In this document: in pieces, positions 27,559 to 60,310 of the stretch
Numbering within the stretch: position 1 is the stretch's first letter
Layout: the number at the start of each line of letters is the position of its first letter
Source of the DNA: Paenibacillus lentus
GTDB lineage: Bacteria > Bacillota > Bacilli > Paenibacillales > Paenibacillaceae
Assembly: GCF_003931855.1 (NCBI RefSeq)
Contig: NZ_CP034248.1
Span: 1,488,001-1,552,000, forward strand
Length of the DNA: 64,000 bases
Direction: 5' to 3'
Made by a program: the position numbers and the translations under genes
The notes under the pieces: model-generated
What the model saw: only the letters and a program-made list of their open reading frames with translations
Database searches by the model: none
What the model was told of the DNA's origin: nothing

Positions 27559-27695
27559 GTGTTTCGGGAGTAGTTCAGGTGCGTGGAGTGTGGAGTGTGA
27601 AGTGTGAAGTGCGTGGAGTTATTGTGTTGATTGGGTGAGTGATTGAGTGAGTGATTGAGTGATTAAGTGATTAAGTGATTAAGTTTACTAGCCTT

Positions 27696-27799
27696 ATTAG
27701 CTTACAGCATTACTAGCAGTATTACTGGCATTATTAGTTTACAGCATTACTAGCAGCATTACTGGCATTATTAGCTTACAGCATTACTAGCCTTGTTAG
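27696..27799 (+). repeat. Tandem array, 37-bp period
   Basis: Units at 27696-27732 and 27733-27769 and a partial third at 27770-27799. Each unit holds two related halves (TTACAGCATTACTAGCAG and CATTACTGGCATTATTAG). Confidence 0.9.
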
Positions 27800-28025
27800 T
27801 TTGAATTGCTGCTATATGCTATAAAAGTAAGCTAAAGAATAGGATGCGGGCAGGGCAAGAGAGAAGTTGATTCCAAAAGAAACGGATGGGGCTGTTCAGG
27901 AGGTCAGTGAAAACGGACTGCTGGACAGCTCCATTTATTCTCAAAAATACTGCTTTTCAGCTCAAGCCGGCGGTCGGTCGCCTAGGTGATTGTATTCTTG
28001 TATCTTGTAAACCTATAGCGTCCAA

Positions 28026-28216
28026 TTGTGAGTCGATATCGCCCATCGTGAATCTAACGCAAGACGTGAGTCGATATCGCCTATTGTGAATCAATACGCC
28101 CAAAACGTGAGTCGATAGCCGCTCATCGTGAATCTAACGCAAGACGTGAGTCGATATCGCCTATCGTGAATCAATACGCCCAAAACGTGAGTCGATAGCC
28201 GCTCATTGTGAATCTA
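28026..28216 (+). repeat. Tandem array, 80-bp period built from 40-bp halves
   Basis: Two 80-base units (28047-28126 and 28127-28206) differ only at C/T positions. Partial units lie on both sides. Each is made of two diverged 40-base halves sharing GTGAATC and ACGTGAGTCGATA. Confidence 0.93.
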
Positions 28217-28304
28217 TATTATCCAGGAAATTTGGGGCACAAGCACCATAGATCGTTGTAACATTCTACGTGCTAGCCAATGTCTTTTTCAATAGTTCAA
28301 CTTT

Positions 28305-55398: not shown

Positions 55399-56043
55399 TC
55401 AATCTACTAACGAGGCGATTATTTTACCCGCAGATAGAGTGGTCGTATAATCAGCAGGCGTGCCCGTATGCTCGTAGCCCGTCGGCCAAAAAATGGTTGA
55501 AGTCGGCGGGGCAGAGTTCGTTGAAGACAAAGTTCTCCACGTGCCGCAACTGTCCCTGTAACTAAAGCCGTCGCATATGACGGTATCATGGCGCGTCGTC
55601 CATTCGGGAAGAGGCTCGGGAATGCATTCAAATTTTTGATCGCAAGCCGCGACGACGAGCCGGGCGTTACTTAGAGCTCCAAAGGGCTCGGCTTCAGCGA
55701 AGAAGGTTTTTACAACCTCCCCGGCCACCTTATACTCCAACTGGCTATCGCTATTCAGAGATAGCTCAATTGGAACAGTAGCTCCGCCTTTTATCATCCA
55801 AGGCCCCCCATCATTGGAAAATCCGGTATTCCAGAACCAGTGCCAGTGATCGTTAACTGCTTCAGCAGGCTTAGTGGACAGGCCGCACTCGTAGTGAACA
55901 TCCGCAGCATATACCCCTAGATAAAAGTTAATGAAGCCTACATCTTTCTCGAAGATTGCAGTTTTGGGCAGCTGAATCGTCGTTTTCAGGCCATATACAT
56001 CATTGTCCATTGCCCAACGCAGAACTTTTGCATACTCTTCCAT
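55399..56043 (-). CDS. Protein of unknown function
   Basis: 214 residues from the ATG at 56043, which has AAAGAGG upstream; the frame extends 15 codons further without support. No signal peptide or membrane helix. The sequence is rich in Trp, Tyr and Thr with an alternating beta-like pattern (LPKTAIFEKDVGFINFYLGV; GPWMIKGGATVPIELSLNS; STIFWPTGYEHTGTPADYT), suggesting a beta-sandwich or lectin-like fold. I do not recognise the family. It is convergent with the U32-family gene and stands alone at the edge of the AT-rich stretch. Confidence 0.75.
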   Translation of the reverse strand: MEEYAKVLRWAMDNDVYGLKTTIQLPKTAIFEKDVGFINFYLGVYAADVHYECGLSTKPAEAVNDHWHWFWNTGFSNDGGPWMIKGGATVPIELSLNSDSQLEYKVAGEVVKTFFAEAEPFGALSNARLVVAACDQKFECIPEPLPEWTTRHDTVICDGFSYRDSCGTWRTLSSTNSAPPTSTIFWPTGYEHTGTPADYTTTLSAGKIIASLVD

Positions 56044-56373
56044 CCCAATACCTCTTTTCGTTATGTTTTTAGGAAAAAGAGAGAACAAGCCATAGGCACG
56101 TCCATAATTTTCCCTCTCATAAGAGAAAGGTAATTTTAGAGGGTGTTTTACAACCTGGTTATAAAAATACTTTTGTTTTTTAATTCAAGCTCTATGAAAA
56201 TACCGATAAGGCAAGTTAAATGTCTATTATTGACCATTTATTGCCATAATGGTAACATAAAGAGGCAACACTTTATACTTTATGACAAATCAAAGGACTA
56301 ATGGTTAACAGGTTGTTTTAATGTGCTTTTATTACACCTTAGTAATATAAAGGGAATTCAGGAGGTGTCTTGA
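56044..56373. other. AT-rich gap before the sigma factor gene
   Basis: No gene recognised. It marks the change to AT-rich sequence that continues to about 62.2 kb. Imperfect A/T-rich inverted repeats are present but none is convincing as an operator. Confidence 0.4.
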
Positions 56374-56991
56374 ATGATTCTAACTAAATCTCAAAGAAAA
56401 ACCTTTAATAATTATTATCAAAAAAATGAATCAGTATTTTCAAATGGTATAGTCAGTAGTTTTTTTCAAAATGAAGAGAATATTGTTCTTTTACTTAAAG
56501 CAGTAGATCATGAACACAAATATTTACCTGAACTAAACGAGAAATTTCGCAAATATTTTTTTAGAGTTCGTTTTACGAAATACTTGGTTTCTACTGTGCA
56601 TTATTGTGCAATTGATCTTATGAGGCAAAACCACAAAATGAAAAAAAGAAATATGCTTATATTTGATAGTCCGATATCTGATAAGGATACGTCTGTAACT
56701 TACGGAGAATTACTTCTTAGCAAACATGCAACTCAACCTTCCGACATACAAAATTTCAGTCTCTCCACCTTTCCAGATTCCATAACTAATGATCATCTAT
56801 CGAAGGCTTTTTCTAGCCTGACCAGAAGACAACAACAAATTATTACCTACAGCTATGTTTTATGCTACAAGGATGTTGAAATTTCTCGCTTACTAGGTAT
56901 TTCTCAGCAAGCTGTATCCAAAGCTAGAAATAAAGCACTGCGAAGACTACGACTCATCATCGAGGAGGGGGGTGACTCCGATGGAAAATAA
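56374..56991 (+). CDS. Sigma-70 family factor, SigO (YvrI)-like
   Basis: 205 residues. The C-terminal region 4 is clear: LTRRQQQIITYSYVLCYKDV then the helix-turn-helix EISRLLGISQQAVSKARNKA, which reads the -35 element. The N-terminal half has only a weak region 2 (FTKYLVSTVHYCAIDLMRQN). This fits the Bacillus subtilis SigO system, in which SigO supplies region 4 and the separate protein RsoA supplies the region 2 function. The next gene, overlapping by 11 bases, is a YvrJ homologue, and an RsoA-like frame follows, the same gene set as yvrI-yvrHa-yvrJ. GGAGGTG precedes the ATG. Confidence 0.85.
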   Translation: MILTKSQRKTFNNYYQKNESVFSNGIVSSFFQNEENIVLLLKAVDHEHKYLPELNEKFRKYFFRVRFTKYLVSTVHYCAIDLMRQNHKMKKRNMLIFDSPISDKDTSVTYGELLLSKHATQPSDIQNFSLSTFPDSITNDHLSKAFSSLTRRQQQIITYSYVLCYKDVEISRLLGISQQAVSKARNKALRRLRLIIEEGGDSDGK

Positions 56992-57163
56992 TCAACCTCT
57001 AGCTTATATATTTACAGCTATTAGTCAGGTAGGATTTCCGATTGTATTGACAGGTTATTTACTTCTTCGCTTTGAAAAAAAACTAGAGCATTTAACACAA
57101 ACGATATCAAAACTAATTGATGTAATTCATAAAAAAGTGAATGGGGAGGGTAATGATGGATGA
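56981..57163 (+). CDS. YvrJ family small membrane protein
   Basis: 60 residues from the ATG at 56981 behind GAGGAGGGGGGTG, overlapping the sigma gene by 11 bases. The single membrane segment and following charged helix (VGFPIVLTGYLLLRFEKKLE) match the YvrJ family well. In Bacillus subtilis yvrJ belongs to the sigO-rsoA operon; its role is unknown. It looks translationally coupled to the sigma gene. Confidence 0.85.
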   Translation: MENNQPLAYIFTAISQVGFPIVLTGYLLLRFEKKLEHLTQTISKLIDVIHKKVNGEGNDG

Positions 57164-57417
57164 ACTATTTGATCTAGTGTTCCAGGCACAAAATGGCGAC
57201 CGTGAGGCGTGAGGCAGTATATGAGGTAATAAGAATTATATTACCCGCTATAAAAAGTGTACGAAACAAGATAGAATTTAATAATAGGGATGATCTTGAA
57301 CAAGAAATTATGGTTACACTTATCAAGAAAATATTATCGTATGACTTAACTCAAGTCCCTGATTTCTCTACATTTTTTATAGCTCTACAAAAAACAAAGA
57401 GTAATTATCGATCGTGA
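57153..57417 (+). pseudogene. RsoA-like sigma partner, frameshifted by a 7-bp tandem duplication
   Basis: It starts at ATG 57153 or 57156, 3-6 bases after GGGGAGGG, overlapping yvrJ. It reads MDELFDLVFQAQNGDREA, then hits TGA at 57210. The bases GTGAGGC at 57202-57208 are repeated exactly at 57209-57215. Deleting one copy joins the start in frame to EAVYEVIRIILPAIKS and on to the stop at 57415-57417, giving about 86 residues. The joined product (NGDREA start, RDDLEQEIMVTLIKKILS) has the look of sigma region 2 helices, and its place in the operon matches RsoA. As it stands, the frame is broken. Either a true pseudogene, a reversible slipped-strand variant, or a sequencing error. Confidence 0.7.
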
Positions 57418-57628: not shown

Positions 57629-58474
57629 TTGTCAAGACGGATTGGTAACCTAAAAATTGTTATTATTTTATCGATTTGTATTATGATTACTGGTTGTTTG
57701 GAGAAAAAGGATAACTTTATTTTAAACAATCATTCTAATTCAATGGAATTAGAGTCGGGGAAAAGCGGCTTTCCGCAAATTGTTGAAGAGAGGATCCGAA
57801 ATGCATTAGCTAGTTCGAACCTCAACTTTTCTGAAGATGATCTCGCTAAAGTCGAGTTCATCAGTTTTGAGGGAATAAGTGAGCCTGTTGATCTGTCCTC
57901 TTTAAGCAGATTGGAAAATTTAAGTGGTATAAATCTGTCGTATGTGAATGTAGAAAATTTTGAATTTCTGTATGAACTACCCCACTTAGATTATTTAGAG
58001 TTAAATGGGGTTTCATTAGAGGAGTTACCAGATTTTAATAAGTTACACCTTCAATCAATAAGTATCTCAGACAGTAATGTCAAAGACATTAATTTTATTA
58101 AAAATTGGAATAAACTTGTATCTCTTACATTGTCTAATTGTCAATTAGCTAATATTGAAGGAATCGAACAAGCAAAAAAATTAAAAACATTACGTATTTC
58201 AAACAACCCTGTAAAGGATCTGCAGCTATTAAGCGAATTAAATGATTTGGAGAGAGTCGAGATTAACAGCACTCAAATTGAGTCGATCAATTCACTGGAA
58301 AATAACAAAAATCTTACTTTTCTAGATATCCGTAACACTCCCATTAATACAGTGGCGTCACTATCCAAATTACCAAAACTCAAAATTTTGCTAGCAAATA
58401 AGGATAAAATTATGGATCTAGATATGATCTCCGATTCTGTCACAGTATCGGAAACGAATGTCTTGGAGTATTAA
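57629..58474 (+). CDS. Leucine-rich-repeat lipoprotein
   Basis: 281 residues, TTG start behind GAGGAGG. A signal peptide ends in a lipobox (MITGC), so it is anchored to the outer face of the membrane. From about residue 85 there are eight or so leucine-rich repeats of the internalin/LRR_4 type, about 22 residues each (LSRLENLSGINLSYVNVENF, WNKLVSLTLSNCQLANIEGI, NDLERVEINSTQIESINSL). The repeats suggest protein binding; the partner is unknown. It is convergent with the next gene across a bidirectional terminator. Confidence 0.9.
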   Translation: MSRRIGNLKIVIILSICIMITGCLEKKDNFILNNHSNSMELESGKSGFPQIVEERIRNALASSNLNFSEDDLAKVEFISFEGISEPVDLSSLSRLENLSGINLSYVNVENFEFLYELPHLDYLELNGVSLEELPDFNKLHLQSISISDSNVKDINFIKNWNKLVSLTLSNCQLANIEGIEQAKKLKTLRISNNPVKDLQLLSELNDLERVEINSTQIESINSLENNKNLTFLDIRNTPINTVASLSKLPKLKILLANKDKIMDLDMISDSVTVSETNVLEY

Positions 58475-58508: not shown

Positions 58509-59057
58509 TTATTTTGTATAGTAGGTAATGTAGTCTACACTGCCTTTTTGGTTTATTACATCTTGCAGAGTTGAATTACTGCTACTACCTGGATCATTAA
58601 CTTTAAACATGGACGCTGAAATATCTGTGTAATATGGAAGGCCATCAATATCAGTAGTCAGCGTTCCTTGAAAGCCCTTAACGACAACCATATGATTAGG
58701 TACATGTACCATTACGGGAACTCTTTGAGTAACAATGAGGTCAAAAAGATTGCTACGGACATTATTAAAGGATCCGTTTGTTTTATTATGCCAGGTATGA
58801 GAGTATTCTGACGCAGCGGTGTTCCAATTAAAAGGACAATCGGCATTATTTTTCTTTTTGAGAGCCTCAGTTATGGATCCTGGATCAACAGTATCACCAA
58901 AACCTTTGAAAATCATCGCAGCCGATGTTAGGAAACAACCTTCTTGTCCAATGGTTCCACCACAGCTTGTTTTCTTACTGTACCAAGTATTATTTCCATC
59001 ATTGAACTGTTTAAAGCTGGGTGTATTTAGATCAACAGAATAGGTTCTTTTTGCCAT
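58509..59057 (-). CDS. C39-like cysteine peptidase domain protein
   Basis: 182 residues from the ATG at 59057, which has AAGGTGG 8 bases upstream; the frame extends 29 codons further without a ribosome site. It has the Peptidase_C39_2 look: possible catalytic Cys in GQEGCFLTSAAMIFKGFG, His in NHMVVVKGFQG, and a following NDPG. No signal peptide or membrane segment is seen. Nearby lipoprotein and amidase genes suggest cell wall or phage-like context; the substrate is unknown. Confidence 0.78.
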   Translation of the reverse strand: MAKRTYSVDLNTPSFKQFNDGNNTWYSKKTSCGGTIGQEGCFLTSAAMIFKGFGDTVDPGSITEALKKKNNADCPFNWNTAASEYSHTWHNKTNGSFNNVRSNLFDLIVTQRVPVMVHVPNHMVVVKGFQGTLTTDIDGLPYYTDISASMFKVNDPGSSSNSTLQDVINQKGSVDYITYYTK

Positions 59058-59214
59058 GATAATATCCACCTTAAATTTGAATTCAGAATAATACTGGGAC
59101 TGTGGATTGCAAATAGAACCATCCCCTATTCTAAATGCAACCAAGAATATTCTGTATTCTTAAAGGTGGATTAACATCAATGAAAAACAACCATTTAGTG
59201 GAAATTGGTTCTTA

Positions 59215-59631
59215 TCATCTCACAATAGCGGACTCATTAAAAATAATTTCTACTGAACCGAGGAGTTGCTCTGTATCTGTTTCTGGTTCAAACACTCCAT
59301 TGTTATCTTCATCTAGATAAAAGTTTATAGTAACGTAAGCATTGGAAGGTGTTCGAGTTTCTATATTCACATCAAAGCCCCCGTCCCCCTCAGGAACTAT
59401 TTTCCCATCACCTATATAAGAATGCCCATCGTCAATTTGATAGAAAAAATAGTCTACTGTTTTGTTAGTAAGTTTTCCTGATATATTTATTTCGTTCGTA
59501 TCCAAGATCATCCCAGAGTGTGGTGTATTTAACTCCAGCTTATTATTATCTTTTGACGTACAGGCTCCTAGAGTAAGTATAAGACTAGATATAAGGATAA
59601 TTACAAATGAAGATAATGTTATTTTTTTCAT
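59215..59631 (-). CDS. Small lipoprotein of unknown function
   Basis: 138 residues. The signal peptide ends in a lipobox TLGAC with the cysteine at about residue 24. The rest is a predicted beta-sandwich (ELNTPHSGMILDTNEINISG; DYFFYQIDDGHSYIGDG), with a segment resembling calcium-binding Asp-rich loops (LDEDNNGVFEPETDTE). AGGAGG lies 6 bases before the ATG. It is divergent from the amidase gene, so the two may share a control region. Confidence 0.82.
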   Translation of the reverse strand: MKKITLSSFVIILISSLILTLGACTSKDNNKLELNTPHSGMILDTNEINISGKLTNKTVDYFFYQIDDGHSYIGDGKIVPEGDGGFDVNIETRTPSNAYVTINFYLDEDNNGVFEPETDTEQLLGSVEIIFNESAIVR

Positions 59632-59719
59632 TATATCCTCCTGAAGGTTGTTTTTTTGATTTTTAAAACCACTTTATTTGATAGGTTGGCGTCAATCAAT
59701 AAAACAAGAGGTGATCGGT

Positions 59720-60310
59720 ATGGCTTTGAAAGGAAAGAAAATTTTAATTGATCCTGGACATGGTGGAAGCGATCCTGGAGCCAGTGGTAAGCTAAACAAC
59801 AAAACTGTAAATGAAAAGGATCTTGCGCTCACTTTTGCTGAATCCGCTAAATCTTATCTAGAGAATGCTGGTGTTACAGTTATCATGACAAGAACAACTG
59901 ATAAGAAAGTAGAAATTAACGACCGGTGGAAAAAAGGGCAAGATGAGAAAGTCGATGCAGTGATAAGTATCCACTGGAATGGGGGCAGCACTACGGCAAA
60001 TGGTACTGAGACATACTATGCTCAAACAAGATCCGGCGATAAATCGTTTGCTCAGGGGCTTCAAAAAGGTGTTGTTGGGGCATTAGGTACAAAAGATCGA
60101 GGAGTCTTGGATGATACTAAAACAGCGGTTGGTTCACTGGGTGTTTTACGCTATCCTAGCGGATCATCGTATAGTTATCCACGAGCTCTAATCGAGGTTG
60201 AGTATATCACCAATTCAACTGCTTTAGCAAACTTGGATTACCCAATGTACGAGGCTTCACTGGATTTTGCTGCAGGAGTTCTTAAGGGGTTACAAGGTTA
60301 TTTTGGTTAA
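59720..60310 (+). CDS. N-acetylmuramoyl-L-alanine amidase (Amidase_3)
   Basis: 196 residues, the catalytic domain only, from the ATG at 59720 behind AAGAGGTG. It cuts the amide bond between the glycan and peptide of peptidoglycan. Zinc ligands and catalytic residues are placed in LIDPGHGGSDPGA (His), NEKDLAL (Glu), ISIHWN (His) and IEVEYITN (Glu). There is no signal peptide and no binding domain, as in phage or mother-cell-lysis enzymes. It is divergent from a lipoprotein gene. Confidence 0.92.
   Translation: MALKGKKILIDPGHGGSDPGASGKLNNKTVNEKDLALTFAESAKSYLENAGVTVIMTRTTDKKVEINDRWKKGQDEKVDAVISIHWNGGSTTANGTETYYAQTRSGDKSFAQGLQKGVVGALGTKDRGVLDDTKTAVGSLGVLRYPSGSSYSYPRALIEVEYITNSTALANLDYPMYEASLDFAAGVLKGLQGYFG

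Follow-up and report, generated by a model that had tools for sequence, protein, structure and literature searches.

Does a seven-nucleotide tandem duplication that breaks the gene for one half of a split sigma factor serve as a reversible switch, or is it an ordinary loss of function? The question is raised by a locus of Paenibacillus lentus within a stretch of 64,000 nucleotides (contig NZ_CP034248.1, positions 1,488,001 to 1,552,000), referred to here as the window. The standard example of a split sigma factor is SigO-RsoA, chiefly tied to oxalate decarboxylase in Bacillus subtilis. Both subunits are required at PoxdC in that species (PMC10028694, PMC8103513). In the window, sequence inspection had identified a sigma factor gene, yvrJ and a small frame in overlapping order at 56374-57417, with an exact duplicate of GTGAGGC in the small frame, and the original prediction held that the SigO-RsoA-type system is off here and that slippage at this repeat could turn it on and off. 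The overlapping arrangement held when coordinates and frames were rechecked, and the exact duplication is borne out by the sequence (Table 1).

Table 1. Features of the split sigma factor locus and its neighbours, in window coordinates.
Feature	Position	Strand	Basis
sigO-like gene, encoding the region 4 half of the split factor (205 aa)	56374..56991	+	Sigma70_r4, phrog_351, Bacillus SigO match
yvrJ, small holin-like membrane protein	56981..57163 (ATG 56981; open frame from GTG 56972)	+	PF12841, phrog_4898, Bacillus YvrJ
rsoA-like gene, 5' part, 19 codons	57153..57212 (ends at TGA 57210-57212)	+	alignment to intact relatives
GTGAGGC in two copies (GTGAGGCGTGAGGC), frameshifting tandem duplication	57202..57215	+	exact repeat; single copy in relatives
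rsoA-like gene, 3' part, other frame; 74-aa remnant, possible start ATG 57193	57193..57417	+	PRK14082, NF041489, Sigma70_r2
LRR lipoprotein gene	57629..58474	+	PF12799 1.5e-17
C39-like peptidase, no signal peptide, predicted SigO target	58509..59057 (open frame to 59144)	-	PF13529 2.8e-5
N-acetylmuramoyl-L-alanine amidase, endolysin-like, no signal peptide	59720..60310 (open frame from 59678)	+	PF01520, phrog_435
Divergent neighbour, family without Pfam match	55399..56043	-	no motif upstream here
Predicted SigO-RsoA-type promoter of sigO operon, GGTTGTT-N17-CACCTTA	56311..56341	+	conserved spacing; exact genome match
Predicted SigO-type promoter of amidase, exact match	59646..59676	+	same exact promoter at amidase in G011, G012
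Predicted SigO-type promoter of C39-like gene, 1 mismatch	59162..59192	-	pattern search

The SigO-like protein matched Sigma70_r4 in a profile search (E = 3.8e-8) and gave no Sigma70_r2 match up to E = 1; solved structures yielded weak sigma-4 matches only. The 3' part of the rsoA-like gene matched PRK14082 (4.7e-8), the RsoA model NF041489 (1.5e-4) and Sigma70_r2 (0.0012), and the intact RsoA of a relative matched HTH_16 (1.3e-7) and Sigma70_r2 (0.013), with a poor single-sequence AlphaFold2 model (mean pLDDT 63). One phage sigma-factor profile, phrog_351, spans RsoA (profile positions 489-562) and then SigO (633-730), which argues that a single sigma factor has been cut in two. YvrJ was assigned to PF12841 (1.2e-15) and to the PHROG holin family phrog_4898 (2.7e-6). 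Comparison with a Bacillus locus retrieved through the RsoA model gave 24% identity for SigO (E = 3.5e-13), 29% for RsoA (E = 2e-5) and 40% for YvrJ (E = 1.5e-8), so that the proposed identity of the pair is upheld by Bacillus homologues of both subunits. Scores against the NCBI RsoA model (about 21 bits for the window genome and G004, 24.9 for G036) are far under its cut-off of 100; the pair is thus a related type rather than a member of that equivalog. It resembles SigO-RsoA of B. subtilis in having regions 4 and 2 on different proteins, and in its nearby yvrJ, its homology and its promoter spacing, but differs in that the sequences are distant and under that cut-off, yvrJ lies inside the operon, RsoA carries an N-terminal helix, and the predicted targets are cell-wall hydrolases, not oxalate decarboxylase. 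No oxdC was found among the neighbouring genes examined.

Two near relatives, G004 (P. bouchesdurhonensis, sigma factor 92% identical) and G036 (88% identical), were aligned at the locus. Both have a single GTGAGGC and an uninterrupted rsoA of 85-86 codons; this comparison, which the original prediction had proposed, bears out its expectation that one copy leaves a continuous protein of about 86 residues. The rsoA-like gene of the window is interrupted by the heptamer duplication, a break that we judge to be real because homology extends on both sides of it and the relatives have one copy. A genome search found no second rsoA in the window genome. The 3' part is 86% identical to the intact RsoA of G004 from residue 16 onward, and its lineage-specific changes (eight silent, seven replacement) resemble the pattern of the near relatives, which indicates that the break is young. 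As in a recent pseudogene, the orthologues are intact, there is a single disabling change, and little further decay has followed.

Change in the 3' part is still mostly silent, so the break is recent or else not real. No relaxed selection is visible yet, which would also fit a working gene or an assembly or sequencing error, the main technical rival to a young loss of function; under such an error, the true sequence would have one copy and an intact rsoA. A single genome stands behind the two-copy reading, its relatives have one copy, and all promoters are intact (see below). However, a 7-bp duplication outside a homopolymer is an atypical error for short or long reads, and tandem units that split genes are not generally over-represented in the window genome: of those lying between two frames, 84 are in the frame expected after a duplication and 107 in the wrong frame. 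We therefore consider an error to be unlikely.

If the break is real, RsoA region 2 is absent or shortened at its N terminus, and the regulon is probably silent. Translation from ATG 57193 could conceivably yield a protein of 74 residues, as this codon is in frame with the 3' part and lies just upstream of the premature stop, where terminating ribosomes could restart. Restart there, or at GTG 57202, would give a protein near the length of Bacillus RsoA, which itself has no counterpart of the lost N-terminal segment. Against a working product of this kind, ATG 57193 is preceded only by a weak AGG ribosome site, compared with the good site GGGGAGGG before the start at ATG 57153, and conservation of the lost segment within this protein family is strong, with residues 5-16, absent from any restarted product, conserved in about 30 homologues. 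The corresponding ATG also exists in G004, where it is out of frame; its presence is thus incidental, and we regard a functional shortened RsoA as improbable. Programmed frameshifting at GCG-TGA was rejected on inspection, as the site has no slippery run and does not resemble known +1 sites.

What the system would control is suggested by a conserved pattern upstream of sigO. We found GGTTGTT-N17-CACYTTA at this position in nine of ten Paenibacillaceae loci, always with a 17-nt spacing, although a few loci are counted only if one or two substitutions are allowed; the pattern was not found upstream of sigO in G011. Only sequences upstream of sigO went into the pattern, and the amidase site was not used. 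In the window genome (5.29 Mb) there are just two exact matches, one upstream of sigO and the other upstream of the amidase gene, 3.3 kb away. Single-mismatch matches number four; one precedes the C39-like peptidase gene and another, at 59043-59073 (+), lies within that gene in antisense orientation. In the sigO-bearing relatives, 16 of 17 exact matches are within 4 kb of sigO, and none occurs in G008, G015, G065 or G111, in which sigO is lacking or reduced to remnants. A further 38 genomes yielded 21 exact matches, against six for a reversed control pattern. Bacillus oxdC is preceded by GTTG-N19-CACTTAA, compared with GTTG-N19-CACYTTA here, with equal spacing. Taken from sequence comparison, these results suggest that GGTTGTT-N17-CACYTTA is the SigO-RsoA promoter. 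The promoters of sigO, the amidase gene and the C39-like gene are intact despite the broken rsoA. Elsewhere, G012 has an exact promoter before a truncated amidase gene (L097) and no detected sigO or rsoA; this promoter may be the relic of a system that has been lost.

The original prediction had pointed to the amidase and LRR genes as places to look for activated promoters, and only the former has an exact predicted promoter. The amidase is assigned to PF01520 (2.2e-37) and to the PHROG endolysin family phrog_435 (5.9e-36). Upstream of the LRR gene there is no SigO-type motif at up to three mismatches, and the gene was rejected as a SigO target; SigO could reach it only through read-through. 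The order sigO-rsoA-LRR recurs in G011. In relatives, the promoter precedes, besides sigO itself, genes for cell-wall hydrolases that are unrelated to one another: an amidase and a C39 peptidase (G011, where the match upstream of the C39-like homologue is exact), a hydrolase of the Hydrolase_2 type (G036), a transglycosylase-like protein with a DPBB domain (G080) and GH46-like proteins (G200, G293). On inspection, several of the predicted target proteins begin without a signal peptide. The regulon thus likely comprises peptidoglycan hydrolases together with the holin-like YvrJ, and does not include the LRR gene.

Other neighbours of the locus also recur. The family of the divergent gene (about 210-230 residues, GFINFYL...ECGIS) is found beside sigO or behind SigO-type promoters in several Paenibacillaceae, with 43% identity between the window protein and its G105 member, and its relatives in G004, G242, G105 and G138 are predicted SigO targets. 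A small lipoprotein gene at 59215-59631 (-) accompanies the amidase gene in G011 and G012. In G011, an A118-type phage holin gene (L047, 7910-8185; PF06946, 3.1e-11) adjoins the lipoprotein gene, a 5'-deleted amidase gene and sigO-rsoA.

Could the duplication nevertheless be a switch? Phase variation would require gain and loss of a copy by slippage, yielding a population with on and off cells and a bet-hedging use of the sigma factor. In its favour, the heptamer is repeated perfectly and in direct orientation, relatives have the single-copy form, sigO and the promoters are intact, and constraint persists in the downstream frame; as in simple-sequence-repeat phase variation, a frame-shifting tandem repeat lies in a regulatory gene. 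Unlike such systems, this one has two copies only, does not vary among relatives and shows no reversion. Perfect two-copy heptamers number 95 in 1.26 Mb of the window genome, about one per 13 kb, so the tract is not longer than chance provides; given this abundance and the frame counts above, the repeat by itself is unremarkable. No copy-number change at the site was seen in more than 50 homologues: both near relatives have the single copy, the other homologues have no repeat there at all, and the parent sequence is not repetitive. A search of the literature on slippage of two-copy heptamers returned nothing usable. Clustered tandem repeats with periods of 7, 8, 37 and 38-80 bp occur elsewhere in the window, at 27583-28218.

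Parts of the module also decay in relatives, irreversibly and in other ways. The sigO gene is absent in G015 and G065 and present only as remnants in G111; internal stop codons interrupt rsoA in G015 and G137, and in G111 the gene is truncated; the amidase gene has lost its 5' portion in G011 and is shortened in G012; and G004 and G036 keep only a stop-containing remnant of the homologue of the lipoprotein gene. The loss of sigO and the damage to rsoA in G015, G065 and G111 arose independently. Where copies are broken elsewhere, the lesion is thus a point stop, a truncation or the absence of sigO, and we consider phase variation to be very unlikely. The proposed on/off switch finds no support, given the two-copy tract, the lack of variation among relatives and this other decay. 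A young, ordinary loss of function accounts better for the heptamer than an evolved switch does; the duplication is reversible in principle, as is any short tandem duplication.

We propose that the SigO-like protein would supply region 4 and the RsoA-like protein region 2, with the holin-like YvrJ encoded between them. Together the two subunits would form a holoenzyme on GGTTGTT-N17-CACYTTA promoters, serving their own operon and genes for leaderless peptidoglycan-cutting enzymes, and YvrJ may aid these enzymes across the membrane. The 7-bp duplication would shift the frame of rsoA after 19 codons and so probably silence the regulon. We place the probability of this explanation as a whole, a split SigO-RsoA-type factor with a hydrolase regulon and a recent ordinary loss through the heptamer, at about 0.68. 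Binding of the motif by this sigma factor, and a role in lysis or release, are what the arrangement of the genes and promoters suggests.

Loci that combine a sigma factor with a holin, and phage lysis cassettes, include Xpf of PBSX in B. subtilis and clostridial UviA/UviB. The present locus is similar in that a sigma factor has as neighbours a holin-like protein and leaderless enzymes of endolysin type, but differs in that the sigma factor is split and that YvrJ is linked to export or lysis by inference only; none of the genes seen alongside it in the examined stretch encodes a phage structural protein. That the split factor controls a cassette for lysis or release, linked to a holin, is a tentative reading, to which we give somewhat less than an even chance; that it does so under reversible control by rsoA heptamer copy number is very unlikely.

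The promoter pattern upstream of sigO across the family is new here. It points to a wider Paenibacillaceae family of such systems that governs cell-wall hydrolases beside a holin-like protein. With RsoA broken and its promoters preserved, the present strain may serve as a natural mutant.
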